Shown: positions 12,852-37,739 of the stretch, one piece after another
Numbering within the stretch: the first letter of the stretch is position 1
Layout of the letters: every line of letters begins with the position of its first letter
NCBI GenBank assembly: GCA_002011815.1
Contig: MTOV01000014.1
Span: forward strand, 1 to 37,739
From: Nitrospirae bacterium JdFR-86
GTDB taxonomy: Bacteria; Nitrospirota; Thermodesulfovibrionia; Thermodesulfovibrionales; JdFR-86
Reading direction: 5' to 3'
DNA length: 37,739 bases
Position numbers and translations under genes: made by a program
Notes under the pieces: generated by a model
The model's input: the letters and a program-made list of their open reading frames with translations, nothing else
Database searches by the model: none
Told to the model about the DNA's origin: nothing

Positions 12852-12857
12852 ATGCCT

Positions 12858-13976: not shown

Positions 13977-14015
13977 AAGTTTATTTTACACGGGATATTC
14001 GTTTATGATAAACAA

Positions 14016-14795: not shown

Positions 14796-14799
14796 CCTG

Positions 14800-15306
14800 A
14801 TGAGAAACCATGCACTCTGGATTATGCCTTCAGGAGATGTCTATGAAAGGCTGAGCGGTTTAATCCGCAAGCTGGCTGAAGAATATTCCACACCGGTGTT
14901 TGAACCCCATATCACCCTTGCCGGAGGACTGATAGGCGACGGGGAAGATGTGATATCAAAGACCTCACAGCTTGCATCTTTGATTAAACCTTATGAGGTC
15001 ATGCTTACAACGGTTGAATATCTTGATGAATACTTCAAATGTCTTTTTATCAAGGTGGAAGAGACAGCCGGAATAATGAATGCTCACCTGCAGGCGAAAA
15101 AAGTGTTTGCTCTGCCACATGACACAAAATACATGCCCCATCTGAGCCTGATGTATGGCTCTCTCACACCGGAGAAAAAAGAAGAAATCATCAAAGAAAC
15201 AGGCAAGCGGTTTGATATGAGTTTTGAGGTCAAAAGCCTTCATCTTTACTGTGTGGAGGGAGAACCCGAGGCATGGCACAGAGTGAAAGAGTTCTCTTTG
15301 GAATAA
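14800..15306 (+). CDS. 2H phosphodiesterase (cyclic phosphodiesterase / 2'-5' RNA ligase-like)
   Basis: A 168-aa protein of the 2H superfamily with two H-x-T/S-L motifs, HITL (H37) and HLSL (H114), that form the active site for cyclic-phosphate or 2'-5' phosphodiester hydrolysis. The pattern HALWIMPSGD near the start and KVFALPHDTKYMPHLSLMYG resemble plant and yeast cyclic phosphodiesterase-like proteins more than bacterial ThpR. A TTG at 14,779, with AGGAG 7 bases before it, is an alternative start inside the mazG end and would add seven residues. Tight coupling to mazG suggests nucleotide or RNA housekeeping. Confidence 0.8.
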   Translation: MRNHALWIMPSGDVYERLSGLIRKLAEEYSTPVFEPHITLAGGLIGDGEDVISKTSQLASLIKPYEVMLTTVEYLDEYFKCLFIKVEETAGIMNAHLQAKKVFALPHDTKYMPHLSLMYGSLTPEKKEEIIKETGKRFDMSFEVKSLHLYCVEGEPEAWHRVKEFSLE

Positions 15307-15400
15307 ATTCTCTTCAAAGGCCGGTATTTCCTGTAGGCAGTCCCTTAAATAGTTGTTATAATGAGATTGACTACACTATAGCGTATATTAAAAGGTTTAT

Positions 15401-17083
15401 ATGACTCTAAAGCAGTCACTGGAGAATATATTTAAGACCAAGTTTCTGAGAACTGTTCTGTTCGTGTCTCTTGTCTCGGTTATAATGCTCCCTGTGTATA
15501 TTATCTTTTTTGTATATCCTTCATTTACAGAGTTGCTGGCGGAGAGCGCTGAAAATGACGCTATACGTGCAGCAACGCATCTGAAGGATATGCATATATC
15601 AACCGAGACCGCACTGACTAAAGATTCCCTGTCGCCTGACTTTTCAGAGATGGTCGAAGATGTGATGAAGGATTTTAAACTCATGAAGCTGAAGGTCTTT
15701 GCGCCTTCAGGCGAGATAATTTACTCCACCGACCCTGAGGACATAGGGAAGGTGAACAAGAAATGGTATTTTCACCAGATCGTAGCCAAAGGCAAATCTT
15801 ACGCAAAGCTGGTGCGGAAGGATACGCTGTCTCTTGAAGGGCAGATGGTAACTGCTGATGTCGTGGAGACGTATGTACCGATAATGGTAGACGGCGAGTT
15901 TGTTGGAGCGTTTGAGATTTACTATGACATTACCGTTACAAAAGAAAAGCTTAACAGACTGCTGTCGAGGTCTTATTTCATTCTTTTTGCAGTGGCATTT
16001 GTCCTTCTGGTGGCTGTTGTCGCAAGCTCGTTCAAGGCAGGCAGAAGCATTGCCGAGCGCAGGCAGGCGGAAAAACAGGTCGTCAAACAGAACGTAGAGC
16101 TTGCAGAGTTAAACTCTGAGCTTTCAGTGCTTTACACGATTTCTTCGGCTATAAGCCGCACGCTCGATATAGACGAACTCTTCTCCATTATTTTGGATAC
16201 CATTACCAGCCGTGAGATATTCAAGGTCGAGCGCAAGGGCGGGATATTTATTGTCGAGGGTGAGAGAATGCACCTTGTGTTTCAGCTTGGTCTTACGGAA
16301 ACTTTTGTGAAGGCTCACGACAATATGAAGGTCGGCGACTGCCTCTGCGGACTTGCCGCAAAAACAGGGGAGGTAATCATTTCGACAGATTCCAATAAAG
16401 ACGACCGTCATACCATAAGATATCCGGGGATTGCTCCGCACGGGCACATAATCGTGCCTCTTAAGGCAATGAACAAGCTCGTAGGAGTGCTGTATCTTTA
16501 TCTTCCGGCTGACACCGAGGTTGATGAACGTGTGCAGAATATGCTCCGTTCCATAGGAAATCAGATCGGCATTGCGATTGAAAATGCAAGGCTTTATAAG
16601 AAGACAAAAGAACTGTCACTGCATGACCCGCTTACAGGGCTTGCCAACAGACGCCTGATGTACATCGAGCTTGAAAGAAGCTTTGCAAAGGCAAAGCGGT
16701 ATGAAACCCCGCTTTCAGTCATCATGCTCGATATAGACTATTTCAAGAAGTATAATGACACATACGGTCATGCCGCAGGAGATAAACTGCTTAAGGACAT
16801 CGCAGAGATAGTCCAGCAGAGCGTGAGAAAAGCAGACCTTGTCGCCAGATACGGCGGGGAAGAATTCTTTATCCTGCTTCCTGAGACAAGACTCACAGAG
16901 GCTTATGCAGCAGCCGAAAGAATAAGAAGAGCAGTTGAAAGAAGAACAGAAGTCACTATTAGTCTCGGTGTTTCCTCTTACCGGCAGGATATGCAGATAA
17001 AGGAAGACCTTATAAAAAAGGCTGACGAGGCTTTGTATCAGGCTAAGGAAAGAGGGAGAAACCGGGTGGAACTTAGTGCTTAA
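15401..17083 (+). CDS. Membrane sensor diguanylate cyclase (periplasmic sensor-GAF-GGDEF)
   Basis: A 560-aa c-di-GMP synthase. TM1 about 17-38 and TM2 about 192-210 bracket a periplasmic Cache-like sensor of about 150 residues (with IYSTDPEDIGKVNKKW). A short coiled linker (about 215-245), a GAF domain (about 250-395, with GDCLCGLAAKTGE) and a GGDEF domain (about 405-560) follow. GGEEF is at 485-489 with an RKAD inhibitory-site motif at 476-479, five residues upstream. It likely senses an external ligand plus a cytosolic cue through GAF. TATAAT near 15,356 may belong to its promoter. Its stop overlaps the convergent ABC ATPase gene by four bases. Confidence 0.93.
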   Translation: MTLKQSLENIFKTKFLRTVLFVSLVSVIMLPVYIIFFVYPSFTELLAESAENDAIRAATHLKDMHISTETALTKDSLSPDFSEMVEDVMKDFKLMKLKVFAPSGEIIYSTDPEDIGKVNKKWYFHQIVAKGKSYAKLVRKDTLSLEGQMVTADVVETYVPIMVDGEFVGAFEIYYDITVTKEKLNRLLSRSYFILFAVAFVLLVAVVASSFKAGRSIAERRQAEKQVVKQNVELAELNSELSVLYTISSAISRTLDIDELFSIILDTITSREIFKVERKGGIFIVEGERMHLVFQLGLTETFVKAHDNMKVGDCLCGLAAKTGEVIISTDSNKDDRHTIRYPGIAPHGHIIVPLKAMNKLVGVLYLYLPADTEVDERVQNMLRSIGNQIGIAIENARLYKKTKELSLHDPLTGLANRRLMYIELERSFAKAKRYETPLSVIMLDIDYFKKYNDTYGHAAGDKLLKDIAEIVQQSVRKADLVARYGGEEFFILLPETRLTEAYAAAERIRRAVERRTEVTISLGVSSYRQDMQIKEDLIKKADEALYQAKERGRNRVELSA

Positions 17084-22352: not shown

Positions 22353-24968
22353 ATGAGCTTCTCTCAGATACTTAGACCCAGACCAGATGTTCTATCAGAT
22401 GAAGGTATAGACGGAATTATTGACCTTGCAAACCTTGACGACCCCAAGGGTAAAAAGCTTGAAGCAAACCCTAAACGGTTCTTTTCTTTAACTTATCCCA
22501 CCGCAGATGTCCGCCGGGTTATTCAGAAGCTGTCCGACAGATTCTCAGGGCGTAAAGATACACCGGGGTTATTCCTTTTTGAGGGTCTGAAAGGAAGTGG
22601 AAAATCTCACCTACTTCTTATGATTTATCACCTGTTCAGGAATTATAAGGTAGCCAGGGAATGGCTTGATGCCCATAAAATGTATTGTGAACTTCCAGAG
22701 GATACAGTAATTGTTGTAAATAAATTTACAGACCTACCTCTTTACTCTATCTGGGATTTCATCTTCGAGAAATTGACAAACCACCGCCCTGAGAAAAGCG
22801 TTGTCCAGCCAGGACTAAAAGATGTCGAAAAAGTTCTAGGAGACAAAAGACTGGTTCTCATACTGGATGAGCTGGAGCAGGGTATTCGTGTAATAAGTGA
22901 CCCGTCACTAAGACAACAGAATATAGCATTCCTTCAGATGCTTTCGGAATGGGCAAACCGTTCTGATAAAGTTACAGTATTTGCAAGTATTTATAGTAGT
23001 CAGGAAGAACCAGGAAGTACTCTTAAAAGGGTTCCAAGTTGCCGTGTTCAATTTGCATATTCAGCGGATAAGGCAAAGGTAGTGCTTCATAGACTTTTTG
23101 AAAACTACCTTGATTCCAGCTATGATGCTTATGCTTCGACCATTGATAGTTACCTGAATACATGGCGTCGCCACCAGCTTTCCTCGCCTGAAGAATACAG
23201 GTCAGAGATGCTTCTTACATATCCATTTTTACCGGAAGTCCTTGAGTTGATTCTTGAAAGAGTGCCTGCACGAGGAGGCTTCCAGAGTGTCCGCGGGGCA
23301 CTGGGATTTCTAGCAAATATGGTTAGATTAACCCATGACAAAGCCGATTTAATCACTGCAGCCCATGCTGACCTTTATGACAGGGAAGTAGTGGCAAGAC
23401 TTTCAGACCTTGACCCAAGCGGAGATTTGATTTCAAAGGCGCGTGGAAATCTCGATGAATTAAAAGGTCAGCCGCTGGTGTCCGAGATTGCCGCTACTGT
23501 GATGCTTTATACGCTTACAGGTTCCGGTCGTAGTTTGGGGGCTACTCGAGAAGAATTAATACGACACGTCCTGAACCCTAAAGTAGATATAAATGACTTT
23601 GAAAGGACACTTCTTGCCCTGCAGAAATATGCATCAAATTTCTGGGTACAGGAAGGCAGATACTACTTTGATCTTGAGGAAAATCCTGACTCAAAGGTCG
23701 AATTCCATTCTTTGCGTATTGACCGCAGTAAAGCACAGAGTCTTCTCCACAATCTCTGGCTGGATGAGATTTTCAGGGAACCCAATTGCGTTATCTACCA
23801 AGGTGAGGAAGAGACAAAGGGTGCACTGGACGAACTTGAAAAGAACCGTCTACGATATATCCTTTCCCCTCGTAAGTTGAGCCAGGAAGAACGCCATGCA
23901 CTTTTTCACGGCGTTCCTATGCGAAATCAGGTTATTCTGCTTGAACCAAAGGACCCGAATTTCAATCTCGATGCTCATAAAGACCTTCTAAAATGGGCTC
24001 AGAGACAGCTTGCCGCGCAGGAGCTTGCAACAAATACAAGAGATTCAAGCCGGAAGGCTGAATATGAAAGAATTTCACGGGAAGACAAACATCACTCTAT
24101 TGATACAATCAGGCGGGCAGGACTTGTTTTTATCCTGTGGGAACATTATGGGAACACAGCAAGCGAAGACCAAATAGAGGAAGAAGCCATCCCTGGTACT
24201 ACAAGAGAAGACGTGCTCAACTATCTTTCTCAACAACTTTTTCCCACCCAGCTGTTTGAAGAGCACCTCTTGTCCCGTTTAAGCGACATTCTTAATCTCA
24301 CTGTGAAAGACATAGATAGACAATATCGTTCAATACTTGGTTTCCCTGTCCCAACAACCATAAGGGCAGTCAGTCAGGCACTTAGAGAATTATGCCGAAA
24401 CAGGCAGCTCAGCATAAAACACCCGAGAGGAAATTTTTGTGGGGAAAACCCGAGTCTTACGGAGACAGAATTTTTCGAGGCTACCGTAGGAGAACCTTTT
24501 GAGACGCCTGCGGTTCACCCTCAAATGTCAATCCCCATCGGTGAGAAAGAAAAAACACCAACTCCTGAACATATGCAAGAGGGCATTACCACGGTTATAT
24601 CTCCACCTCCAGTTACTGCAAGAAGGCAGGAAATCAGCATTCTGCCCCAAGAAAGTAGTGGGGCGCTAAGGCAAGCCGTGGCTCTCAGACTTCAGGAATT
24701 CCCTGATGCAAGGGTAACGCGTATTCGAGCTACTATATTTTTAGAAAAGAATACGAGTGATCTCAGCACCCTACCTGCTACAATCAGAGGCAATCTCAGC
24801 GGGCAGGGGTTAGTTACCACAGAGACCACTATTACCAAAGAAGGTGAGTTCACTAAAGGAGAGGTGGAGACAATTATCGAGTCTCTTCCAGTTCTACCTG
24901 ATGCAAATTATGGGGCAAGGTTAGATCTTTTGATTCCGACCACTGAAGAGGAAAAGAAAAATGAGTAA
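22353..24968 (+). CDS. DUF499-like AAA ATPase of a PglZ-linked defence system
   Basis: An 871-aa P-loop ATPase. Near the N-terminus LRPRPDV and RFFSLTYPTADVRRVIQKL resemble the start of anti-phage-associated DUF499 proteins. Walker A is GLKGSGKS (78-85) and Walker B LVLILDE (167-173), followed by ASIYSSQEEPG as a sensor-like strand. The middle is helical with winged-helix-like segments; about 725-765 is a proline-rich linker and the last 100 residues a separate small domain. DUF499, BrxC and PglY ATPases are thought to play equivalent roles beside PglZ; this one is shorter than BrxC (about 1,200 aa). It overlaps the PglZ gene by 8 bases, so the two are coupled. First gene of the cluster. Confidence 0.8.
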   Translation: MSFSQILRPRPDVLSDEGIDGIIDLANLDDPKGKKLEANPKRFFSLTYPTADVRRVIQKLSDRFSGRKDTPGLFLFEGLKGSGKSHLLLMIYHLFRNYKVAREWLDAHKMYCELPEDTVIVVNKFTDLPLYSIWDFIFEKLTNHRPEKSVVQPGLKDVEKVLGDKRLVLILDELEQGIRVISDPSLRQQNIAFLQMLSEWANRSDKVTVFASIYSSQEEPGSTLKRVPSCRVQFAYSADKAKVVLHRLFENYLDSSYDAYASTIDSYLNTWRRHQLSSPEEYRSEMLLTYPFLPEVLELILERVPARGGFQSVRGALGFLANMVRLTHDKADLITAAHADLYDREVVARLSDLDPSGDLISKARGNLDELKGQPLVSEIAATVMLYTLTGSGRSLGATREELIRHVLNPKVDINDFERTLLALQKYASNFWVQEGRYYFDLEENPDSKVEFHSLRIDRSKAQSLLHNLWLDEIFREPNCVIYQGEEETKGALDELEKNRLRYILSPRKLSQEERHALFHGVPMRNQVILLEPKDPNFNLDAHKDLLKWAQRQLAAQELATNTRDSSRKAEYERISREDKHHSIDTIRRAGLVFILWEHYGNTASEDQIEEEAIPGTTREDVLNYLSQQLFPTQLFEEHLLSRLSDILNLTVKDIDRQYRSILGFPVPTTIRAVSQALRELCRNRQLSIKHPRGNFCGENPSLTETEFFEATVGEPFETPAVHPQMSIPIGEKEKTPTPEHMQEGITTVISPPPVTARRQEISILPQESSGALRQAVALRLQEFPDARVTRIRATIFLEKNTSDLSTLPATIRGNLSGQGLVTTETTITKEGEFTKGEVETIIESLPVLPDANYGARLDLLIPTTEEEKKNE

Positions 24969-25935
24969 TCTGCTGGTAGATAATTTTGAGAGCTTAATAG
25001 CACAAGGGCCAAGAGTCAAGTGGCTTGAAAAGTGGCTATTAGGAGAAGTTTGGACTGTTGAGCGATATCAAAGTCTTTCCTCACATGATTATCTAAAGAA
25101 TGGTGAATCAAAGGTCAACGAGCTTGAAGAGATAATAGCACAGGCAGCCTACAGGCTTTACGACGAATTTCTCGATGACCCTCCAGAGGAAAGGAATGTC
25201 CTGAGTTTTCTTGAAAGTGAGAAATTAAATGCTCTGGTTATCTTTGATGGGCTATCCTTAAGGGAGATTCCAGTACTTTTGAACCTTGCCCAAAAATCAA
25301 ATTACACGGTTCATGAGGTTGGAATAACTTACTCTGTGTTACCGACAGAAACCAACGATTTTATAGAACAGAGATTAAAGTTCGGAAATATTGCTCCATC
25401 TTTACTTCCGAAAAGAAGAGAAATAAAAGAGAAAGGAATCGCCGCATATTATTATTACGATACAAACCAACAGCATCTGCTTGACCGGGATTCAAAGAAG
25501 CTCCTTTTGTGGTCTGCATTTCCTGATAACACTTATAGTGACAGCACTGCCCGTTTCGACAGGCACTTTGAGCAGATCCATACGCTTCTTGAAGTTTCCT
25601 GGCTTAATACAGTCCAGCAGATTCCCCGAGGGCGGAAAATTTTAATAACCAGTGACCATGGATATGTATATTTCGGGGCAGGGCTTTCTTTTGCGAGGTC
25701 AAATTCTGAATTAAGACCGCTAACAGCATATCTTGGAGGTGAACGTTACAGGCGTCTGGAGGAAGGCGTTGTTCCGCCTGAACACCCTGATCTGGCAGTA
25801 TATCCTAATCGTAAGATTGCGGTTTTAAGGGGGCGTATTCAAACTCATCCTCCAGGTAAAGGAGCAAACAGGCTCTACAAACATGGAGGACTTTCAATAA
25901 TGGAAATCCTTGTGCCCTGGATTGTCCTGGAGTAG
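24961..25935 (+). CDS. pglZ: Minimal PglZ-domain protein
   Basis: A 324-aa protein of the alkaline-phosphatase-like PglZ family. Expected metal-site pieces are present: D96 in LVIFDGLSLREIP, a T/S-rich SVLPTET at 125-131, D232-H233 in LITSDHGYVYFG, and H308 in KHGGLSIMEILVPW, the closing signature of PglZ. BREX PglZ proteins usually exceed 650 residues; here almost only the catalytic core remains, with about 90 residues in front. PglZ is the defining component of Pgl/BREX-type phage defence, with reported phosphodiesterase or nuclease-like capability in some members. Start ATG overlaps the ATPase stop. Confidence 0.88.
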   Translation: MSNLLVDNFESLIAQGPRVKWLEKWLLGEVWTVERYQSLSSHDYLKNGESKVNELEEIIAQAAYRLYDEFLDDPPEERNVLSFLESEKLNALVIFDGLSLREIPVLLNLAQKSNYTVHEVGITYSVLPTETNDFIEQRLKFGNIAPSLLPKRREIKEKGIAAYYYYDTNQQHLLDRDSKKLLLWSAFPDNTYSDSTARFDRHFEQIHTLLEVSWLNTVQQIPRGRKILITSDHGYVYFGAGLSFARSNSELRPLTAYLGGERYRRLEEGVVPPEHPDLAVYPNRKIAVLRGRIQTHPPGKGANRLYKHGGLSIMEILVPWIVLE

Positions 25936-25943
25936 ATAAAGGT

Positions 25944-27602
25944 ATGAGTATTATTGACATTAAGCGGTTACTCAAGCAGTCTGAGGGACAATTTCTTGAA
26001 AGGAAGACGTGTTATGAATATAGAGATGGAAAGAGACGTCTCAGGAAAGCAAAGGATGTTGCCAGAAATGTTGCAGAAACACTGTCAGCTTTTGCAAATG
26101 CTGATGGTGGCACCCTTTTATTGGGTGTAGAAGATAATGGGGCTGTCTCAGGAGTTGATTTCCCTGAAGATAAACTCAAAGTTATACAAAATGCTCCCAA
26201 AAACCTGATAAAACCTTCCTTACGGGCTGAAATCAATAAAGTTGATTTCGAGGGAAAAAGGCTCTTCATTTTCACTGTCAACTGGATGCCTGATGTCTAT
26301 CAACTAACCGATGGGCGCTATTTGCTTCGTATAGGCGATTCAAATGTGCCTTTTCCTGCAAGTCAAATTGAACAACTTAAATTAGGGAAGAGAAAAGCTG
26401 CTTTTGAAAGTCGCATCGAGCCCACTGCTACATGGAATGATATTTCTAAATCACTTGTATTAGATTTTGGCAAAAGAGTTGGTATAAAAGGAGATGCTGA
26501 GACTATCTTGAGTCAGTATCGTTTGATAGAGTACAACAATGGAACCCCAAGGTTTAAACTGGCAGCACTGCTTCTTTTTGGCAAGGACCCTTTAAAGTGG
26601 CATCCACGATGCGGAATAGACTTCATAAAATATGAAGGGGTAGAGAGGGAAACAGGCAGGAAACTGAATATCGTTAAGAGGGAAAGAATAGAATTTCCTC
26701 TTGTGAAATTGATTGAAGAAGCCTATAAAACTATTTCCGTCCATATTAAAGAACGGCAATACCTTCACGACTTGTTTTTCATCGAAAAACTTGAATATCC
26801 TGCTTTTGCATGGCAGGAGGCAATTGTGAACGCTGTTGCCCACAGGGACTATAGCATTAATGGTCTATCTATAGAAGTATGGATGTTTGATGACCGGATG
26901 GAGGTTCGCAGTCCCGGTTTACCTCCCGAACCGGTCACACTGGAAAAGATTCTCAAGAGGGAAAAGATCCATGCCAGCAGAAATCCGCTTATTGTGCGAG
27001 TCTTGACTGATTTAGGCTACATGCGAGAGACTGGAGAAGGAATTCCCAGAATGTTTGACGAGATGGAAAAGAACGGGTTATATCCTCCAAAGCTTGAGAT
27101 TATTGCTGACTCGTTATTTTCTGTGACTTTAAACAATCAGCCAATGTATTCCGCAGAGGATATGAGATGGCTTGAGCAGTTTGCCGGGCTAAATCTTAAT
27201 CCTGACCAGAAACGGATGTTACTCTTTGCACGGTCTCACGGTGGGTCATTCACAAGCAAAAATTGGCGAAAAGTATGCGGAGTGGATATCTATACTGCAT
27301 CGAAGGATATCAAGGATATGATTAGAAAAGGGTGTCTTATTCATCCTCAGAAAGGTAGTAGAGTTTATCATATAAGTTATCCCTTTGAAAGAGAAGAGCG
27401 AAAGTTTCCTGAAGAGTATGGTGCTATTGAAGAGACCTTAAATAAGCAAGGTTATATAACAAATCAAGATATCCGAGAAATACTGAAAGTGCCGAGATTT
27501 CAAGCTGTCAGGATAGCAAAGCAGTTGATTGAGTTGGGGGTCTTAGAGCTTGTTGGCAAAGGGAGAGGGGCAAAATATATTAGAAAGCAGTTACAAAAAT
27601 GA
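25944..27602 (+). CDS. AlbA_2/Schlafen-domain ATP-binding regulator-like protein
   Basis: A 552-aa protein. Residues about 10-125 are an AlbA_2 (Schlafen-type) domain: EGQFLERKTCYE, AETLSAFANADGGTLLLGVED, then YLLRIGDSNVP. About 285-385 is the GHKL-like ATP-binding module shared with RecG-like regulators (EAIVNAVAHRDYS, GLPPEPV, ETGEGIPRMFDEM). A C-terminal winged helix spans about 490-550 (QGYITNQDIREILKVPRFQ). Such proteins are often called transcriptional regulators and are frequent in defence islands; Schlafen-type domains can also cleave RNA. It follows pglZ by 8 bases. Sensor, regulator and effector are all possible. Confidence 0.82.
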   Translation: MSIIDIKRLLKQSEGQFLERKTCYEYRDGKRRLRKAKDVARNVAETLSAFANADGGTLLLGVEDNGAVSGVDFPEDKLKVIQNAPKNLIKPSLRAEINKVDFEGKRLFIFTVNWMPDVYQLTDGRYLLRIGDSNVPFPASQIEQLKLGKRKAAFESRIEPTATWNDISKSLVLDFGKRVGIKGDAETILSQYRLIEYNNGTPRFKLAALLLFGKDPLKWHPRCGIDFIKYEGVERETGRKLNIVKRERIEFPLVKLIEEAYKTISVHIKERQYLHDLFFIEKLEYPAFAWQEAIVNAVAHRDYSINGLSIEVWMFDDRMEVRSPGLPPEPVTLEKILKREKIHASRNPLIVRVLTDLGYMRETGEGIPRMFDEMEKNGLYPPKLEIIADSLFSVTLNNQPMYSAEDMRWLEQFAGLNLNPDQKRMLLFARSHGGSFTSKNWRKVCGVDIYTASKDIKDMIRKGCLIHPQKGSRVYHISYPFEREERKFPEEYGAIEETLNKQGYITNQDIREILKVPRFQAVRIAKQLIELGVLELVGKGRGAKYIRKQLQK

Positions 27603-27646
27603 AGCAGTCTAAAATGTTACTTTTCGAATTTTAAACTGCTTCATTT
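27597..27646. terminator. Long imperfect hairpin between the AlbA_2 and methylase genes
   Basis: AAATGAAGCAGT (27,597-27,608) pairs with ACTGCTTCATTT (27,635-27,646), and after one C/A mismatch TAAAAT pairs with ATTTTA, leaving a 12-base loop. The left arm begins inside the AlbA_2 stop region. There is no clean T-run after it, so a classical terminator is not certain; partial terminator, RNA-processing site or a trace of a small mobile repeat are alternatives. Confidence 0.45.
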
Positions 27647-27670
27647 ATGATTTAGATTGTTACATTCAGT

Positions 27671-30600
27671 ATGGAAAAAGCGATTCAAGACTCAAAACTA
27701 AAATCCTGCGGCTCTACAAAGTATGCCATTGAAGACTCCTTCCCCATTGTGGAGATAAACCGCCTTGCGATTCCAGAAAGGAACGCCTTTAAACCTATAT
27801 ATCAGATGCATAAGTGGTTTGCTCGCAGGGCTTCCTGTGTGTTTAGGGCAATTCTTCTCGGGTGTATGAAGCCTCTTCCTCTGGATGAAAATGGAAAACC
27901 GTTGAAAAGCGGTGCCCAGATAATAATGGAAGAATTCTATAAAGATCACACGAATGACCCGGATACAAACGGAAAAGTCATCCTTGACCCTTTTATGGGT
28001 GGGGGCACAACAGTAGTCGAAGCCCTGCGTCTTGGATGTAAGGTCATAGGGATAGATCTCAATCCAGTTGCATGGTTTATAGTAAAGACCGAAGTCGAGC
28101 CCGTTGATATTGCTGAATTAAAGGCGTCATTTGAGCGTCTGGCTGAACGAAAAGTTGCATGGAGCGGGAAATCAGTAAAGGAGACCCTTCTTGAACAGTA
28201 TAAAACCGAATGTCCCTGTTGTGGTACAGGCAGGGAAGAAGCAGATATTATCTATACTTTCTGGGTTAAGTCTGCCATTTGCACTAATTGTAAAAAAGAG
28301 GTTCCGCTGTTTTCGGATTATATTATTGCGGCTAAGACTCCTTCAATAAAATATAGTCGGGATGTAGAATGCCCTGAATGCGGCAGGACATTTGATTGGG
28401 AGTTAGAACCAGCGAGTCTGATTGCTGAACCGGGACTTTGTATAGCAAGTCCCTCTTATTCTGCGGGGATTGGTCGCACAAGTGTGCGATGGGCGTTTTC
28501 TGCTGGTGATAAAGTGAAATGTCCATGGTGTGAGAAGATTATAAAAGCAAGAATTACGCATAAAAAGAAAGAACGGAAAAAGGTGCCGCTTACTGTTCTT
28601 CTTTGCCCTCATTGCTATTCTGTATGGCAATGGAGGGGAAATCTTCCTGAAAAGGTGAACTGCCCTGTTTGTAATAAGAGTTATGACCCTAAGAAAGGCA
28701 ACGTCCCTAAAAGTGGTTGGTTTCTGTGTTCCTGTGGGCATACAGACAGGATAATAAACTCTATACGGAGCCTGCCCAAAGACCAGCTTTTTCCAATGCG
28801 TCCTTATGCTATTGAAGGTTATTGTCCTCATTGTGCAGGTGATTTAGAGGGAGAAACAGATTTAACCCAGATGACAATTGAAGGCACTAACTTAAAGCTT
28901 AAGATTAAAAACTCAAAACTAAATAGCCACCTCTGTTTGCTTACAAAAAACAATGGAAAGTTTTTCAAAAGGATTACTTCTTCAGACCTTGCCAGATATC
29001 AGAGGGCATGTGAAATATGGGAAAAAGAAAAAGTAAATTTGCCATATCCAAAGCAGAAAATCCCTGAAGGATTTAATACTAATCAAATGAGAAATCACCA
29101 TTATCATTACTGGTATCAGATGTTTAATCCAAGGCAATTGCTTTGCCTTTCGATACTGCTGAAGGCGATAGACGAGGAACAGGACCAAGTGTTGAAGGAA
29201 ATGTTGCTGAGTGGGTTTTTCAACCTCTTGAATAATGTAAGTGACTTTTGTTCATATAGGACTACTGTCCTTGCATTGCGCCAAGTTTTTGCTCGTCATG
29301 ACTTTGCCCCCAAAAACACGCCTTGTGAAAATAATGTATGGGGATTGAAATTTGGCATGGGAAGCTTTGAATCATGCGTTCAAACCGTATATGATGGAAT
29401 TCGGTTTGCTATTAGCCCTTCTGATCGGCGTTTTACTGGTCAATTTAACAAAAAAAATCAACCCATCATTAGTGATATGAAATCTTCTGAAACAGTTTAT
29501 TCCGGTAGGCCCAATCTTATGTCAGAGGATTCAAAAAGATTGGCTGTGACTGTCAAAAATAACCCTATACACATCGTTGTTACCGACCCTCCATATGCAA
29601 GTAACGTTAATTATTCAGAACTATCTGACTATTTTTATGTATGGTTAAGCCTGGTGTTGAGTAAAACTTATCCATATTTTGCGCCTGATGCTACTCCAAA
29701 AAGGGAAGAAATAATTGAAAACCCGACTCGTGGGTATACCATAACAGATTTTGAAGAGGGGTTAAAGTCTGTATTTGTAGAATGCAAGAAAAAACTCGAT
29801 GATAGAGGACTGTTAGCTTTTACATTCCATCACGCTGAGGGGCGTACATGGGAATCGCTTCTAAAAGCTGTATGTGATGCAGGGTTTATTGTTGAAGCCG
29901 TCTATCCGATACATGGAGAACCTGAAGCTTCTCTACACCTTCAGGATAAAAAGGCAATTGCTTATGATCTCATCCATGTCTGCCGCAAGAGACCAATTGT
30001 GCAGAATGTTCAAAAACGTTCGTGGGCAGGTATTCGTCAGGAAATTCGGCGTAGGGCAAGGGAAGAGATTAAAGTCATTGAGGCAGGAAGATATGGTAAT
30101 GAGCCGCTTTCTCCAGCTGATATAAACATCATCCTTATCGGCAAATGCCTTGAACTTTACAGTCGTCACTACGGTGCTATCGTTGACCATGAAGGAAATG
30201 AAGTTCCATTAAAACAGGCACTTGAGGAAATCCGCATGATGGTAGACCAACTTCAGTCGAAAGAGCAGCCTTTACCTTCTGAGCTTTCTGACATTGACCC
30301 TGAATCCTATGTATATCTGACCTGCCTCTGTAACAGAAAGGAAATCAAAAGCGATGAGGTACATAAAGCTACAAGGGGAATCTTGGAGCCGGATTCTTTA
30401 TTCGAAGCAGGTCTTATGATAAAGGGCAGAGCTAAACGCGGCAGGACTTACGAGGTAAAACAACCTCTTGAGCGCTTTGATTCTCTGGTTGAGAAGTTCA
30501 AAGAGCCCCAAGTTGAAAAAACTTTATTCGGCGACATGGAAGTACCAACTAAAATGAAAAAGAAAATATATTTCATTGACTATGTCCATTTTCTTATGGC

Positions 30601-30766
30601 TCTTGTTGAAGGTGGAGAAAACATCGTGCCATGGCTTGAACGCTTCAGAAGAGAGACACCAAGGCTTAGAGCCGCATGCGAATATCTGATGGGAAAGAAC
30701 AACGGCTTTGCGCCTACGCTTAAAAAAATCCTTGATATGATAGATATGGGACCACTGTTTAGATAG
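27671..30766 (+). CDS. DUF1156 DNA methyltransferase with zinc ribbons
   Basis: A 1031-aa DNA amino-methyltransferase. The DUF1156 hallmark MHKWFARRAS is at 46-55; the SAM motif ILDPFMGGGTT at 104-114; catalytic DPPY at 639-642 inside VVTDPPYASNVNYSELSDYF. Between them are eight cysteine knuckles (about 181-184, 204-207, 234-237, 284-287, 312-315, 331-334, 353-355, 385-388), enough for four zinc ribbons. It probably methylates adenine N6 or cytosine N4 to mark self DNA. This family (Zn-ribbon adenine methylases) serves as PglX of BREX type 3, as I recall, and occurs with DUF499 ATPases. The ATG has no Shine-Dalgarno, suggesting a separate short-leader transcript. Confidence 0.88.
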   Translation: MEKAIQDSKLKSCGSTKYAIEDSFPIVEINRLAIPERNAFKPIYQMHKWFARRASCVFRAILLGCMKPLPLDENGKPLKSGAQIIMEEFYKDHTNDPDTNGKVILDPFMGGGTTVVEALRLGCKVIGIDLNPVAWFIVKTEVEPVDIAELKASFERLAERKVAWSGKSVKETLLEQYKTECPCCGTGREEADIIYTFWVKSAICTNCKKEVPLFSDYIIAAKTPSIKYSRDVECPECGRTFDWELEPASLIAEPGLCIASPSYSAGIGRTSVRWAFSAGDKVKCPWCEKIIKARITHKKKERKKVPLTVLLCPHCYSVWQWRGNLPEKVNCPVCNKSYDPKKGNVPKSGWFLCSCGHTDRIINSIRSLPKDQLFPMRPYAIEGYCPHCAGDLEGETDLTQMTIEGTNLKLKIKNSKLNSHLCLLTKNNGKFFKRITSSDLARYQRACEIWEKEKVNLPYPKQKIPEGFNTNQMRNHHYHYWYQMFNPRQLLCLSILLKAIDEEQDQVLKEMLLSGFFNLLNNVSDFCSYRTTVLALRQVFARHDFAPKNTPCENNVWGLKFGMGSFESCVQTVYDGIRFAISPSDRRFTGQFNKKNQPIISDMKSSETVYSGRPNLMSEDSKRLAVTVKNNPIHIVVTDPPYASNVNYSELSDYFYVWLSLVLSKTYPYFAPDATPKREEIIENPTRGYTITDFEEGLKSVFVECKKKLDDRGLLAFTFHHAEGRTWESLLKAVCDAGFIVEAVYPIHGEPEASLHLQDKKAIAYDLIHVCRKRPIVQNVQKRSWAGIRQEIRRRAREEIKVIEAGRYGNEPLSPADINIILIGKCLELYSRHYGAIVDHEGNEVPLKQALEEIRMMVDQLQSKEQPLPSELSDIDPESYVYLTCLCNRKEIKSDEVHKATRGILEPDSLFEAGLMIKGRAKRGRTYEVKQPLERFDSLVEKFKEPQVEKTLFGDMEVPTKMKKKIYFIDYVHFLMALVEGGENIVPWLERFRRETPRLRAACEYLMGKNNGFAPTLKKILDMIDMGPLFR

Positions 30767-30811
30767 TTGTGAATTAAAAAGGGAATGAAAATATTTTTAA
30801 AGAATTAAATC

Positions 30812-31627
30812 ATGGCACCAAACAAATATAAGCTGAAATCGTCTGCGCTTACTCAAGAAATAAATTACCTTTTTGGGAGTTTCGCATCTGAAAATTTACG
30901 AGAGTTTGCACAGTATTTAAATTTAATCGATGGTCAGCGACCACGAAGTTCGGAAATTCTTAAATGGTACAGCTGGGTAAAGCCTCGTTTAACAAATGAG
31001 AATCCTTACCAAGAAGGAATGGTGCTTATCCGACTCTTAATTTTCCAATTCATGGTAGAAGGATGCACAAAACAAATGTTCAAGTTGCTCCTCAGGACAT
31101 TAGTTCATCAATTTCCTGAATATAATAAAGATAAAATTCGCAAACTTCTTAACCCTAATAAAGGTAAAGTTACTGATCTAAGACCACTTGAGGAAAATAT
31201 TTTATCTATACTTGGTGCTTCTGATAAGTTTACTATTCTGTATAAGGGATTAGAAGAGCTTTGTTCTCCACATTTATATGAGTTGCGTAATGCAATAGCC
31301 CATCAGAGATTCTATATCGAGCCGCAAGGTAATGACCGTCTCATCTTCTACCAGCCCGAAAGACGACGACTGACAAAAACAAATGCAAAAGCAATAAAAG
31401 CATCGGAATTTTTCAAAAAAATGGATTCTCTGGAAATATTTTGGGCTTCTTTTTTTGAGGCATATAGTGTTCTATCTTTAAAACTTATCGAGTCAGGACA
31501 ACTTCTGGATCATCCTTGTGGCGAGTGTGGGAGTCTTATAATATATGCCAGGGGAGAAAAGCCGCCAACAAAATGCAATTTTTGCGGTTTCAGGGTTCAA
31601 TTAAAAACTCAACACCCGGAGGAATGA
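30812..31627 (+). CDS. HEPN-like Zn-ribbon protein of the defence cluster
   Basis: A 271-aa protein I do not recognise as a named family. It is mostly helical; ELRNAIAHQRF contains R159-N-A-I-A-H164, matching the R-x4-6-H catalytic motif of HEPN ribonucleases. The C-terminus has a zinc ribbon, C236-C239 and C255-C258 (CGEC...CNFC). HEPN proteins are common RNase toxins or effectors in defence islands, so an RNA-cutting abortive role is possible; non-catalytic RNxxxH helices also occur in ordinary proteins (for example DUF4145-like). It follows the methylase by 45 bases without a strong ribosome site and is one base before the next gene. Confidence 0.7.
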   Translation: MAPNKYKLKSSALTQEINYLFGSFASENLREFAQYLNLIDGQRPRSSEILKWYSWVKPRLTNENPYQEGMVLIRLLIFQFMVEGCTKQMFKLLLRTLVHQFPEYNKDKIRKLLNPNKGKVTDLRPLEENILSILGASDKFTILYKGLEELCSPHLYELRNAIAHQRFYIEPQGNDRLIFYQPERRRLTKTNAKAIKASEFFKKMDSLEIFWASFFEAYSVLSLKLIESGQLLDHPCGECGSLIIYARGEKPPTKCNFCGFRVQLKTQHPEE

Positions 31628-31628
31628 A

Positions 31629-32066
31629 TTGCCAGGATACCAGCTTGTAGAAATAGGAAATTTAAGTCCAAATAAGAATAACGGCATTTTACCTTACAAA
31701 AATAAGATAGGCTTTCTGGACTTTTTACGGGAAATTACTCAAGACCCGCTGCCGTTTCCGAAATTCTACAAGGTGCAAGTGGTTGGATTGGAAGAAGTGC
31801 TTTTTGCAGCTCGTCCAAAACAGGAGGAAATGGCACTTAAGATATATAGCCTGCTGAAATCTGCTGCGCAGAACCTTGAAAGAAAGCTTATAGATGTTCA
31901 GATTGTATTTCGGGGAAGACTTGTAAGAGGCGAAAGTTTCTGGGTTGAATATAGAAATGTAAAGCTCCCGATAGGACACATTTTCGGCTCACCTATGAAA
32001 CAGACCGATGCACAAGGAAATCATTTTTATAAGAAAAGCTTTAGTTTAACCAATGGGATAATTTAG
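31629..32066 (+). CDS. Unrecognised 145-aa protein in the defence cluster
   Basis: Translation starts at TTG 31,629: GGAGGAA ends four bases before it and the previous stop is one base upstream, so coupling is clear. The protein is mixed alpha/beta with LEEVLFAARPKQEEMALKIY, LIDVQIVFRGRLVRG and LPIGHIFGSPM. No catalytic motif, membrane segment or signal peptide is visible and I do not know the family. Its conserved place between the HEPN-like and helicase genes suggests a system-specific part, perhaps a specificity or bridging protein. Confidence 0.65.
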   Translation: MPGYQLVEIGNLSPNKNNGILPYKNKIGFLDFLREITQDPLPFPKFYKVQVVGLEEVLFAARPKQEEMALKIYSLLKSAAQNLERKLIDVQIVFRGRLVRGESFWVEYRNVKLPIGHIFGSPMKQTDAQGNHFYKKSFSLTNGII

Positions 32067-32094
32067 TTTTTAATTATGAGTTTTAGTTAGGTTT

Positions 32095-34938
32095 ATGGAT
32101 AAAAAGACTAAGAAAACGGTTAATACAGGAGAAAAAGTAAAAGCGTATGGACTCGAGCACCTTGGAACAGGTGAGGTTCTCAGGGTGCGTGAGTCAGGAG
32201 CTACCTATCAAGCCGATGTCGTATTTGACAGTGCAGACGGGCGGCGGTTGGAGACAATTCCCATAGATAGGCTTGAGCGTGTTCCCGACCTGATTGAACG
32301 ACTTTCTACAGGAGACGTGGACTCGCCACTTGATTTCTATCTTAAACAGCTTGCATATCAACTGCCGCTCAATAATGCTGGAGGTGAGCTCTCAAACTCA
32401 AGAACCGACCTTTTGCCACACCAGATTCTTCTGACACGGGACATTGTTGAATCCGAGCGGCGAAAGTTCCTTATAGCCGATGAGGTCGGGCTTGGAAAAA
32501 CCATAGAAACAGGACTTATCATAAGAGAGTTATTTGCTAGAAATGAGGCAAAGCGAGTTTTGATAATTTGTCCTGCAGGGCTGACCAGAAACTGGCAGCA
32601 GGAGCTCAAGGACTGCTTCAGGCTACACTTTGATATACTCGGAATTGACTTCAATGATACAAGCTCGCTCTCATGGGAAAACCATCATCGCGTAATCGCC
32701 TCAATAGATACCATCAAGCAGGCAAAAAGAATTGAAAAGCTAAGACAGGCACCCAAGTGGGACTTAATAGTGTTTGATGAGGCACATCATCTGAGCCGTA
32801 AAAAGTATGGTAAAAAAGTGGATTATACACAGAATTATCGTCTGGCTGAGGCGCTGAGAGGTTATACCAGAGATATGTTTTTCCTTTCTGCAACTCCTCA
32901 TCAGGGCGATGCATATCAGTTCTGGTCTTTGATTCAACTCCTCGATGACCAGCTGTTTGAATCTCCAGAAGTCATGGCAGACCATAGGGGACTTCTTAAC
33001 CGGGTAATGTTTCGGAGAACAAAGCGGGAGGTTACTGATGCAGAAGGTAATCCACTGTTTATGCGCCGTCAGGTGCATACACAAACATTTCCGTTAGCAG
33101 CACGGGAAAGGTGGTTCTATGATCGGCTTACTGAATATTTGAAGGAGGGCTATGGAGTTGCCGGTATAGGAGAGAAAAAGACCACAAGTAAACAGAGGGC
33201 TGTAGGCTTTGTTATGGCTACATTCCAGAAAATGATGTCGTCAAGCCCCCGTGCTATTCGTCAGGCATTAAGGAGAAGACTTTTGGTGTTACTTGCACGT
33301 GAACAGATGGCTCTGGAGAAAAAAATCCAGAAATCCCGTGCTGCTGGGCTGGCAGAGAAGATATTGAAAATCCAGGAAGAGATGAGAAATCTTGCTATTG
33401 AAATTGCTTCTATTCCACCCTCAGCAGAACAGATAGCATCAGCAGATTCTTATATTGCAAAAGTAAAGCAGCGGCTTGCCCGAAAAGGTTATCCAAGCGA
33501 AGAGGCAACACCCTGGGCGCTTGATGCTGAGGAGGAAGCTGAAAATATTATTTATGCTGAAGCTGTAATACCCGATGAAATTCAAAAAGTGCGCGAGTTG
33601 ATTAAACTTGCTCCGGAAGGAACAGATAGAAAATTTGACACTCTCGTAAGGGCAATTGAGCAGGTTAGAAGGCTTTCTCCACAGGAAAAAATTGTTATCT
33701 TTACGCAATATAGAGAGACATTGGAGTTCTTGAAAGAAGAGCTGAGTAAATTATATGGTGAAGAAAAGATTGCTACTCTTAAAGGTGGTCCTCTTGAAGA
33801 AAAGATTGCAGCTGTAGAGTCTTTTTGGGAACCAGACGGAGCGCAGTTCTTAGTCAGCACTTCAGCCGGAGGCGAAGGAATAAACCTCCAAGTATGCCAT
33901 ATCCTTTTTAACTATGATCTTCCATGGAACCCAATGGCAGTCGAGCAGCGGATAGGCCGTATTCATAGATACGGGCAAACTGATACCGTACAGGTTTATA
34001 ACCTTGTTGCCGAAGATACGGTAGAGGAACGAATTTATAACCTGCTTGAAGAAAAGTTGCTTGAGATTGCCCGGGCAATAGGGAAAGTTGATCAGGTAAC
34101 AGGGCAGGTTGTAGAGGACTTCAGGTCAGAAATCCTCGGCTTCTTAGGCAGTTCCCCTAACTATCAAGACCTCTACAAAAAAGCCCTTATGGACAAAGAT
34201 TATCAAAGGACCGAGGAGGAGATAGTCGAGGCAATCAGAAAAGCTCAGCAAGCCAGCGAAGCCCTCCGTTATCTTGCACAGGACCTCGAATCTTTCAATT
34301 TTGGCCGATACAGAAATATGAAGGGACCGTTTACCCTTGATGACCTTAAACTCTTTGTAGAAAGAGGTATCTTGAGGTTGGGAGGAGCATTTATACCCCA
34401 AGGAGATGTTTTCTATATAGAGACCCCTGAAGTCTTGCATCGGTATCCAAACATTTCACCCCGATACGAAAACGTAGTATTTGACCGAAAGCTCGCCATG
34501 AGGAAACGAAAAGCTGAATTGTTTGGTATCGGGCATCCTTTAGTCGATGCCCTTATTGAACATTTCAAAGGACCTCTTTTCTCTGGTGAGGTGAGTATTA
34601 GTGAAACAACCTCTAATGCTTATCCAATCTCAGTTAGATACGTGTTTATGGTAAACTTCGAGGAAGGTGTGAAGAAGGTCTTTTATAAAGGATTCAATTT
34701 GAATGAGAATGGGAATTTGGAAAGGTTTCAACCCAGAAGCGACATAGAGGCACTACGTAATCTAAGAAACAGACTAAAGCCAGTTTCTAAAAAGGGAGTT
34801 TCAGTTCCAGAGTGGCTAAAGGAGAGAATTAACTCTATTATTATCGAGGAGGAAGCCCGATTAAGAGCCAAGTTTGATAATGTGTTATCAATACAAAGCA
34901 AAATAGTTGGAATTAGTTTCAGGGAAACCTCAGGGTAG
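32095..34938 (+). CDS. SNF2-family helicase (BrxHII/DrmD-like)
   Basis: A 947-aa superfamily 2 DNA translocase. Motif I ADEVGLGKT at 128-136, DEAH at 228-231, motif III SATPHQGD at about 265-272, motif V STSAGGEGINLQ and motif VI QRIGRIHRYGQ at about 620-630 are complete. The N-terminal 60 residues look like a small beta barrel (GTGEVLRVRESGATYQADVVF). The roughly 250 residues after the motor are a family-specific C-terminal region. It resembles the RapA/HepA-like helicases of BREX type 3 (BrxHII) and DISARM (DrmD). Translocation along DNA could expose or sense unmodified phage DNA. Only a weak AGG precedes the ATG. Last gene of the cluster. Confidence 0.88.
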   Translation: MDKKTKKTVNTGEKVKAYGLEHLGTGEVLRVRESGATYQADVVFDSADGRRLETIPIDRLERVPDLIERLSTGDVDSPLDFYLKQLAYQLPLNNAGGELSNSRTDLLPHQILLTRDIVESERRKFLIADEVGLGKTIETGLIIRELFARNEAKRVLIICPAGLTRNWQQELKDCFRLHFDILGIDFNDTSSLSWENHHRVIASIDTIKQAKRIEKLRQAPKWDLIVFDEAHHLSRKKYGKKVDYTQNYRLAEALRGYTRDMFFLSATPHQGDAYQFWSLIQLLDDQLFESPEVMADHRGLLNRVMFRRTKREVTDAEGNPLFMRRQVHTQTFPLAARERWFYDRLTEYLKEGYGVAGIGEKKTTSKQRAVGFVMATFQKMMSSSPRAIRQALRRRLLVLLAREQMALEKKIQKSRAAGLAEKILKIQEEMRNLAIEIASIPPSAEQIASADSYIAKVKQRLARKGYPSEEATPWALDAEEEAENIIYAEAVIPDEIQKVRELIKLAPEGTDRKFDTLVRAIEQVRRLSPQEKIVIFTQYRETLEFLKEELSKLYGEEKIATLKGGPLEEKIAAVESFWEPDGAQFLVSTSAGGEGINLQVCHILFNYDLPWNPMAVEQRIGRIHRYGQTDTVQVYNLVAEDTVEERIYNLLEEKLLEIARAIGKVDQVTGQVVEDFRSEILGFLGSSPNYQDLYKKALMDKDYQRTEEEIVEAIRKAQQASEALRYLAQDLESFNFGRYRNMKGPFTLDDLKLFVERGILRLGGAFIPQGDVFYIETPEVLHRYPNISPRYENVVFDRKLAMRKRKAELFGIGHPLVDALIEHFKGPLFSGEVSISETTSNAYPISVRYVFMVNFEEGVKKVFYKGFNLNENGNLERFQPRSDIEALRNLRNRLKPVSKKGVSVPEWLKERINSIIIEEEARLRAKFDNVLSIQSKIVGISFRETSG

Positions 34939-35105: not shown

Positions 35106-35657
35106 CTAAGGATCCTCTCCGAGGTCCGGCATGTCTTCCTCGGATGGAAGAAGTATCCACTCCTCCCTCAGCAGTTCCCATGCTGTCCGGTGAGCTTGTT
35201 CTGGAGTGTATCCGTTCTCTACCAGTTGCGCCTTCACTCTCTCCATGGCTTCCAGTGTGTTTCTTACTGCGTTTTCCAGTACGTTTTCCAGCTTTCCGTT
35301 TTTCTTTAGTTCCCGATACATCTTCGGTCTGTGCTCCTTCCAGTGCTCTTTAGCTAGTTGCTTCAGCCCTTCTGGAGACTTCTCCGGTTCCAGTCTCTTC
35401 TTTATGTCTTTGGAGATCGAGGTTTTTGGCTCCCCCGGTGTTAACGCTTTTTGTTTTTGTGAAGGTTGCTTTTCCTTTGGCGCCAGCCTCACCGTAATCT
35501 TTACCTTCCTCCTGTCCTTTGGGGATAGGGGAGGCAGGCTTTGTAACCACTCCAGAAGGCTTATGCCCTCTTTCACTCCTTCTACCCTCGGAGGTAGCTC
35601 TCTGCCTGTTTTCATAAAGTATGGAGTCCGCCTCTTGAAATGTTCGTCCAAGCCCAT
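35106..35657 (-). CDS. Unrecognised 183-aa charged helical protein
   Basis: A soluble protein of unknown function. Residues 1-50 have a proline-rich stretch, about 50-90 are lysine-rich and probably disordered, and about 95-183 form a helical domain with RPKMYRELKKNGKLENVLENAV and AWELLREEWILLPSEEDMPDL. The MYRELKKxGKLE...A pattern reminds me of small TnpV-like proteins seen near mobile elements; this is weak. GGAGG stands 8 bases before the ATG and a stop is directly upstream in frame, so the start is sure. It lies on the strand on which the CRISPR array is probably transcribed, between a relic repeat and the array. Confidence 0.7.
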   Translation of the reverse strand: MGLDEHFKRRTPYFMKTGRELPPRVEGVKEGISLLEWLQSLPPLSPKDRRKVKITVRLAPKEKQPSQKQKALTPGEPKTSISKDIKKRLEPEKSPEGLKQLAKEHWKEHRPKMYRELKKNGKLENVLENAVRNTLEAMERVKAQLVENGYTPEQAHRTAWELLREEWILLPSEEDMPDLGEDP

Positions 35658-35767: not shown

Positions 35768-37739
35768 ATCACAATCCCTTTTTATATAGGTCTTCTTTAT
35801 TTCATAGAATAGCAGACAAAATCCTCAACCTTGAACTGTCCCAATCCCATTTTATAGAGGTCTCCTTTATTTCGGCTAATGGCACAAATTGTTATACCGC
35901 AGAAAGGGTCCCAATCCCTTTTTGTAAAGGTCTTCCTTATTTCCTTCGTGCGGCTCGATGGCTTTGCGCCCAGAAAAGTCACAATCCCTTTTTATAGAGG
36001 TCTCCTTTATTTCCCTGTATCTCTACAAAGAGGAAAAAGGATACTCTAGTCACAATCCCTTTTTATAGAGGTCTTTTTTATTTCACTAAAGGAGTATTTC
36101 TATGCCCGTCGTAACTGTCGCAATCCCTTTTTGTTTAGGTCTTCTTTAGTTCATGCTCACTATAGGTTACATCAAGAGGAAAAAACAAAGGCGTCGTAAT
36201 CCCTTTTTGTTTAGGTCTTCTTTAGTTCAGTGTGTATGAGTTTTTAAGAGAGAGAAAGAGAGAGGGTCGTAATCCCTTTTTGTTTAGGTCTTCTTTAGTT
36301 CAAGGTAAGCAGAAGACAATCTCAAAGAAAGCCATACTGTCGTAATCCCTTTTTGTTTAGGTCTTCTTTAGTTCTCAAACACAGGCACACACCCAGCCTT
36401 GTCGCAAAGTCGTAATCCCTTTTTGTTTAGGTCTTCTTTAGTTCGAGACTGCGAGGTTTTAAGCCTCGAGTCTCTTAGCGGTCGTAATCCCTTTTTGTTT
36501 AGGTCTTCTTTAGTTCTGCGAAGCGTTTGCAAAAGCTTGGTGTCACGGTTGGTCGTAATCCCTTTTTGTTTAGGTCTTCTTTAGTTCCTCTTGCCGTAGT
36601 TACCATAACGGTAATAAGCGCAGTCGTAATCCCTTTTTGTTTAGGTCTTCTTTAGTTCTAGCACGGGGTGGCTGGAAGTCCTACAGTGGTAGGGCGAGGT
36701 CGTAATCCCTTTTTGTTTAGGTCTTCTTTAGTTCCAGAGGCTATTTTAAAGAAAGAGGCCGACTTCCTTGTCGTAATCCCTTTTTGTTTAGGTCTTCTTT
36801 AGTTCATCAAAGAGTTATACAAGAAGATACCGACTTTTAGTCGTAATCCCTTTTTGTTTAGGTCTTCTTTAGTTCAGCTCTTGGTCCGGACGGTTCTGTG
36901 ATTTCAGCCGCAGTCGTAATCCCTTTTTGTTTAGGTCTTCTTTAGTTCAGAACACAAAAGCTCAAAGACAAGATAAAAGCAGGTCGTAATCCCTTTTTGT
37001 TTAGGTCTTCTTTAGTTCAGATGACCGCCCTTAAAAAGCTCATAGAGACTGTAAGGTCGTAATCCCTTTTTGTTTAGGTCTTCTTTAGTTCAGGAATTGC
37101 CCTGCAAAATAGGAGAAGTCATAGGGGCGGTCGTAATCCCTTTTTGTTTAGGTCTTCTTTAGTTCCGCTTGGGGAGTGTGGAAGATAAAAGTTGACTCCA
37201 TGTCGTAATCCCTTTTTGTTTAGGTCTTCTTTAGTTCAAAAAACAGACAAAAAATAAGAAAAATTTTGAAGAGTCGTAATCCCTTTTTGTTTAGGTCTTC
37301 TTTAGTTCATTAAAGTGAGTGAGAAAGAGGTTGAAGAAGAGTATAAGAGGTCGTAATCCCTTTTTGTTTAGGTCTTCTTTAGTTCAAAAATTTGAAAATG
37401 AAAGGAGGAACAAAATGGATAGGTCGTAATCCCTTTTTGTTTAGGTCTTCTTTAGTTCTTAATGCCGGCAGAAATAAGCCCCGGTATAGGTGTGTCGTAA
37501 TCCCTTTTTGTTTAGGTCTTCTTTAGTTCAAGCCGGGGATAAAACGGTTTGGTAACGTAACGGTGTCGTAATCCCTTTTTGTTTAGGTCTTCTTTAGTTC
37601 CTCCATGCAAAGAGGAGGTTACGTACATAAAGTGTTGGGTCGTAATCCCTTTTTGTTTAGGTCTTCTTTAGTTCTGGACACCTTGCGATGAGTGCGGTTT
37701 GACCGCTTGTGAGTCGTAATCCCTTTTTGTTTAGGTCTT
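35768..37739 (-). CRISPR. CRISPR array, 28 repeats seen, continues past the window
   Basis: 27 complete 36-bp repeats plus a final one cut at the window end, with 27 spacers of 32-41 bases. On the plus strand the main repeat reads GTCGTAATCCC-TTTTTGTTTAGG-TCTTCTTTAGTTC. Starts: 35768, 35838, 35908, 35978, 36049, 36117, 36193, 36266, 36339, 36409, 36481, 36552, 36623, 36699, 36770, 36840, 36913, 36983, 37056, 37130, 37202, 37273, 37350, 37423, 37494, 37565, 37639, 37713. Repeats 7 onward are identical; repeat 6 differs at one base; repeats 1-5 are variable and end in TATTTC. Erosion marks the left as the old end, and the reverse-strand repeat ends GGGATTACGAC, like known 5' handles, so crRNAs are probably read right to left. 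No cas genes or leader are in the window. Confidence 0.98.

Follow-up and report, generated by a model that had tools for sequence, protein, structure and literature searches.

A probable Type-3 BREX-related operon with RNase-type cargo genes from an uncultured Nitrospirota lineage

Results

A seven-gene cluster resembling Type-3 BREX-related systems

A cluster of seven genes on a contig from Nitrospirae bacterium JdFR-86 very probably constitutes a Type-3 BREX-related (BR) anti-phage operon, in which genes 1, 2, 4, 6, and 7 form the core and genes 3 and 5 are accessory cargo of the RNase type (Table 1). We place the probability of this reading at roughly 0.88. Within the window, by which we mean the whole stretch of 37,739 nucleotides that was analyzed, the cluster occupies positions 22353–34938 as seven intact open reading frames (ORFs) on the plus strand, whose successive junctions are an 8-bp overlap and gaps of 8, 68, 45, 1, and 28 bp. 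These coordinates and ORFs agree with a first-pass annotation, which had described seven genes on one strand separated by short gaps or overlaps. The gene content and order of the cluster, its intact motifs, and the conservation of its core are directly observed. Scans for promoters and terminators returned sites no more numerous than in shuffled sequences.

Table 1. Genes of the cluster, with window coordinates and the basis of each assignment
Gene	Coordinates	Strand	Length (aa)	Assignment	Basis or position
1	22353..24968	+	871	DUF499/BrxC-like AAA+ ATPase	Walker A GLKGSGKS, Walker B LVLILDE; profiles, tree
2	24961..25935	+	324	Standalone PglZ, candidate metal-dependent nuclease/phosphodiesterase	Profiles, alignment
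3	25944..27602	+	552	Schlafen AlbA_2 + HATPase_c_4 + C-terminal wHTH-like region	Slot A (between PglZ and methylase)
4	27671..30766	+	1031	DUF1156 N6-adenine methyltransferase	Motif I DPFMGGGTT; DPPY at 639; profiles
5	30812..31627	+	271	HEPN-like + C-terminal Zn ribbon	Slot B (between methylase and gene 6); weak profiles, motifs
6	31629..32066	+	145	Core small protein (TTG start), probable BrxB/BrxF-like iSTAND	Profile, model, alignment
7	32095..34938	+	947	SNF2 helicase, BrxHII-like	Profiles

Profile searches uphold the initial domain calls for the DUF499-like ATPase and for the PglZ, AlbA_2/GHKL, DUF1156, and SNF2 proteins. Gene 1 matches PADLOC DUF499 (4.6e-16) and HmaC (2.8e-13), as well as NCBIfam DUF499_antiphage at 1.7e-21, which lies below the equivalog cut-off, and its match to Pfam DUF499 is likewise sub-threshold. 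Among the loci searched, 86 gave a profile match to this protein, and the ATPases of relatives span roughly 850–960 aa, such that gene 1 is of normal size for its family; the earlier remark that a BrxC of normal size is missing was therefore mistaken. The PglZ protein is recognized weakly by NCBIfam BREX_PglZ_4 (1.2e-6), and an alignment reveals that residues D96, T131, D189, D232-H233, and H308 are invariant across its relatives. Because the PglZ and DUF499 matches fall below the Pfam cut-offs, assignment to these families leans on the relatives and on gene context. Gene 4 scores 26.2 bits against DUF1156 (cut-off 24), also matches N6_N4_Mtase, and carries an insert with seven CxxC motifs at 181–388. 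The helicase matches BrxHI/HII (1e-105) and HmaA (3e-105), and Pfam revealed no nuclease domain on this protein.

Conservation of the operon and of its core

A scan with a PglZ alignment across 84,980 species, each represented by a single genome, identified 224 relatives. The best 80 of these were taken for comparison together with ten further loci from genomes of the window's phylum, four of which coincide with loci already among the 80. In most intact loci, which derive from bacteria of many phyla, the genes follow the order ATPase, PglZ, slot A, methylase, slot B, small gene, helicase. The closest locus (L022) encodes a PglZ that is 80% identical and includes genes 1, 2, 3, 4, 6, and 7 but not gene 5.

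In a tree of the ATPases, PglZ-bearing systems are split from four PglZ-less DUF499 systems with support of 100/100. The ATPase of the window adjoins sequences from Nitrospinota and Latescibacterota metagenome-assembled genomes. Long reference branches restrict inference from the tree beyond these points. The same order of genes is found on a Klebsiella pneumoniae conjugative plasmid (NZ_CP083769; locus L106), which encodes in succession a DUF499 protein, a PglZ-like protein of 339 aa, cargo, a DUF1156 methylase, a 166-aa protein, and a SNF2 helicase. It differs from the window in that its ATPase belongs to a diverged branch and in its slot A, where SIR2 and HerA-like genes (positions 12735–15612 of that locus) lie between PglZ and the DUF1156 methylase of this Type-3 BR-like operon.

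Two loci on haloarchaeal plasmids (L104, 10001–17473; L105, 10001–17475) contain the ATPase, PglZ, the methylase, and a gene 6 homologue, followed by a DNA adenine methylase. The gene 6 homologue in these plasmids is 132 aa long and matches the profile of gene 6 at 25.6 bits, and no SNF2 helicase is annotated beside either locus. The PglZ protein of the first of these is annotated as "alkaline phosphatase". No relatives of PglZ were confirmed among IMG/VR viral contigs.

Gene 6 as a probable iSTAND component

Gene 6 had been listed initially as one of two proteins of unknown type, the other being gene 5, whose presence in related loci would bear on the nature of the cluster. The two proved to have contrasting distributions, with gene 6 present in nearly all complete relatives and gene 5 found, within the sequences searched, in this genome only. 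Profile searches (including Pfam, PADLOC, and NCBIfam) assigned gene 6 to no family, and a profile built for it matches proteins in 38 loci. The other four core genes (ATPase, PglZ, methylase, and helicase) occur together in 52 loci. A gene 6 homologue accompanies them in 31, and in another 19 its slot is taken by a protein of 166 aa, so that this position is filled in 50 of 52 cases. The two exceptions (L070 and L075) also have fragmentary methylase ORFs. Gene 6 is thus a core component that is nearly universal between the methylase and the helicase.

In an alignment, 27 homologues have in common an MPGY sequence, conserved at the N-terminus, and an FG motif. In the AlphaFold2 model of gene 6 (pLDDT 88.5), the predicted elements are ordered as strand, strand, helix, strand, helix, long helix, strand, and three short strands, and the three-stranded insert that follows strand 4 agrees with the published hallmark of iSTAND proteins. 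The predicted fold therefore indicates that the BrxB/BrxF component, which the first-pass annotation had thought missing, is probably gene 6, a role with which its position and size also accord. A Foldseek search of the model against the PDB returned no significant match, AAA/RecA-type folds being among the weak, unusable ones. In sequence, gene 6 is only weakly linked to the family of 166-aa proteins: an hhalign comparison of the two scores 23.2, exceeding the values of 200 column-shuffled controls (at most 19.3), yet the HH-suite probability is only 6%, and hence the identification is likely rather than proved. The AlphaFold2 model of the 166-aa counterpart is poor (pLDDT 51); from residue 57 it exhibits the order E-H-H-E-E-E-H-E-E, which resembles that of gene 6.

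Relationship to known BREX and BR systems

A survey of BREX diversity has defined three BR systems centered on DUF499 ATPases (Rakesh and Krishnan, 2026; PMC12839542). The third of these, Type-3 BR, is described there as combining a DUF499 ATPase, a DUF1156 N6-methylase, and a BrxHII-like helicase lacking a nuclease; of its 569 taxa, nearly all possess a standalone PglZ and 82% a small inactive STAND (iSTAND) protein. A later paper on BrxC (PMC13326643) restates this composition, identifying the extra pair as a minimal PglZ together with a homolog of BrxB. The window shares with Type-3 BR the DUF499 ATPase, the standalone PglZ, the DUF1156 N6-methylase with several Zn fingers, and the nuclease-free BrxHII-like helicase, and its gene 6, whose strand order resembles that of iSTAND proteins, is the probable counterpart of the iSTAND component; it differs in carrying Schlafen and HEPN-like/Zn-ribbon cargo within the operon. 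The five-gene core very probably belongs to this system, which was published under that name in January 2026 (PMC12839542), and the distinct BREX subtype that the first-pass annotation had envisaged does not hold for it. The alternative put forward alongside, in which BREX and the DUF499-DUF1156 module are combined into a hybrid bearing a possible RNase arm, was essentially right, except that this hybrid already has a name, Type-3 BR.

Other assignments fit less well. Type 3 BREX shares with the window a BrxHII-like helicase, a PglXI-like methylase, PglZ, and a BrxF-like iSTAND analogue, whereas the window lacks BrxA, has an ATPase of the DUF499 rather than the BrxC/DUF6079 type, and encodes a PglZ that is short and standalone. 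BREX proper (types 1–6, including type 3) was rejected because the BrxC model yields only 11 bits on the ATPase and because none of the seven proteins matches BrxA or BrxL, two absences also listed by the first-pass annotation. The Hma, or Type-1 BR, system has a homologous helicase, a DUF1156 methylase, and a DUF499 ATPase, but PglZ is absent from it, and a C-terminal PD-(D/E)XK nuclease is usually part of the helicase (the HmaA model spans 1176 positions, as compared with the 947 aa of gene 7). This assignment was rejected because PglZ is present in the window and profile searches revealed no nuclease domain on gene 7. Type-2 BR, which is characterized by a DUF3780 gene and an HKD nuclease-helicase, was rejected because the seven proteins contain neither DUF3780 nor a PLD domain, in comparison with an Acinetobacter locus (L107).

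Cargo in the two variable slots

Gene 3 matches SLFN_AlbA_2 (4.8e-20) and HATPase_c_4 (6.5e-23), and a Schlafen gene also occupies slot A in the nearest relatives, L022 and L023, and adjoins a PglZ fragment in L025. For gene 5, the initial description as an HEPN-like Zn-ribbon protein is borne out in part: two CxxC motifs form a ribbon at the C-terminus and an RX4H motif (RNAIAH) is located at residue 159, but matches to HEPN profiles are sub-threshold (HEPN_RiboL-PSP, E 0.14; DzbB, 5.6e-4). No relatives of gene 5 were found in related loci, among PDB sequences, or on plasmids, and none were confirmed in IMG/VR viral contigs; across 396 genomes of the phylum, the window itself was the only occurrence. 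Since no search found gene 5 outside this genome, it defines no subtype. That the whole seven-gene set represents a distinct and undescribed BREX subtype is accordingly very improbable and largely refuted, for although gene 5 lacks a known relative and the exact set recurs in no other locus examined, gene 5 is missing even from the closest one and the core genes fit a named system.

In other loci, slot A accommodates Fic, DUF3800, SIR2 with HerA, or a PIN ribonuclease-like gene paired with a small RHH-like gene (PIN-RHH), and slot B accommodates a Swt1-type HEPN, an AAA_15 ATPase, or a DUF433 protein. One such Swt1-type HEPN gene (L049, 13809–14597) lies in the slot that gene 5 holds in the window. 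Slots A and B thus look like interchangeable cargo positions that often carry RNA-cleaving modules, and genes 3 and 5 are cargo that would most likely serve as back-up RNA-cleaving effectors.

The PIN-RHH pair occurs in slot A of 24 of 47 window-like loci (including L015, L016, L048, L055, and L066) versus none of 24 diverged loci, and it is present in all ten rows of one clade of the ATPase tree. In the same tree, the window-like ATPases (24 rows) form a clade with support of 100/99 that is separate from the Sphingomonas/Klebsiella type, and among the methylases inspected the window-like proteins have 4–8 CxxC motifs versus 3 in the diverged type. These patterns would fit a new lineage inside Type-3 BR that is characterized by a Zn-rich methylase insert and ribonuclease cargo, the fixed cargo being PIN-RHH in one clade and Schlafen in that of the window. 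We hold this only tentatively, at a little under even odds, for the survey already reports two 4C Zn fingers in part of the Type-3 BR methylases, and Schlafen, HEPN, and PIN proteins figure there among the auxiliaries of BREX and BR systems generally, so that the branch may fall within its counts (PMC12839542). The same survey describes Type-3 BR neighborhoods as lacking conserved adjacent standalone nucleases, and the frequent occurrence of PIN-RHH in slot A of window-like loci, where it is common in a sister clade, runs contrary to this. The fuller claim, in which the window-like branch is a separate Type-3 BR lineage whose two slots repeatedly recruit PIN-RHH, Schlafen, and HEPN effectors and in which gene 5 is a new HEPN-Zn-ribbon effector, we consider unlikely.

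Comparable in standing to the new-lineage reading, and similarly somewhat short of an even chance, is the possibility that the cargo works separately from the core, genes 3 and 5 being self-contained modules of toxin or defense function that are carried along in the operon as passengers. The variety of unrelated modules found in the same slots of relatives speaks for such independence, but the co-directional placement of the genes within the operon, with spacings of 1–68 bp, and the repeated recruitment of RNase-type modules suggest co-regulation.

Sequences downstream of the cluster

A CRISPR array with a 36-bp repeat, GTCGTAATCCCTTTTTGTTTAGGTCTTCTTTAGTTC, follows the cluster at 35773–37739 and runs off the end of the contig. 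It contains 22 repeat copies at 36117–37674, with degenerate copies at 35773 and 35907. Profiles for Cas1, Cas2, and RAMP proteins found no match in the genome, which comprises 25 contigs and is 100% complete; cas genes could sit in an assembly gap. Between the cluster and the array, a 183-aa ORF on the minus strand (35106–35657) has a sub-threshold match to TnpV (E 0.0015).

Discussion

In type 1 BREX, BrxB, BrxC, and PglZ form a core complex that is needed for both methylation and restriction, and PglZ nicks DNA (PMC13326643). By analogy, we infer an anti-phage function for the cluster of the window in which the gene 4 methylase would mark adenines at target sites in host DNA, with the ATPase, the iSTAND protein, and PglZ probably required for methylation as well. 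The ATPase, gene 6, and PglZ might form a complex for DNA scanning and switching, such that an encounter with unmodified phage DNA would cause an ATP-driven reassembly of the ATPase with the SNF2 translocase and thereby activate PglZ, with gene 7 providing movement along DNA. Activated PglZ would then nick or block the unmarked DNA and stop phage replication. Should restriction fail, tRNA or other RNA could be cut by the Schlafen protein and perhaps also by the HEPN-like one, resulting in abortive infection; genes 3 and 5 would in that case act jointly with the core. Every biochemical step of this scheme is modeled on related systems.

With the core accounted for by a named system, the residual interest of the cluster lies in its RNase-rich cargo slots and in gene 5. 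If a separate branch that recruits RNases does exist, it would join DNA restriction to a built-in RNA-cleaving abortive arm. The cluster represents a complete Type-3 BR operon from an uncultured Nitrospirota lineage, and Type-3 BR offers a minimal natural system in which to ask whether BREX-like immunity relies on PglZ as its DNA-cutting effector.
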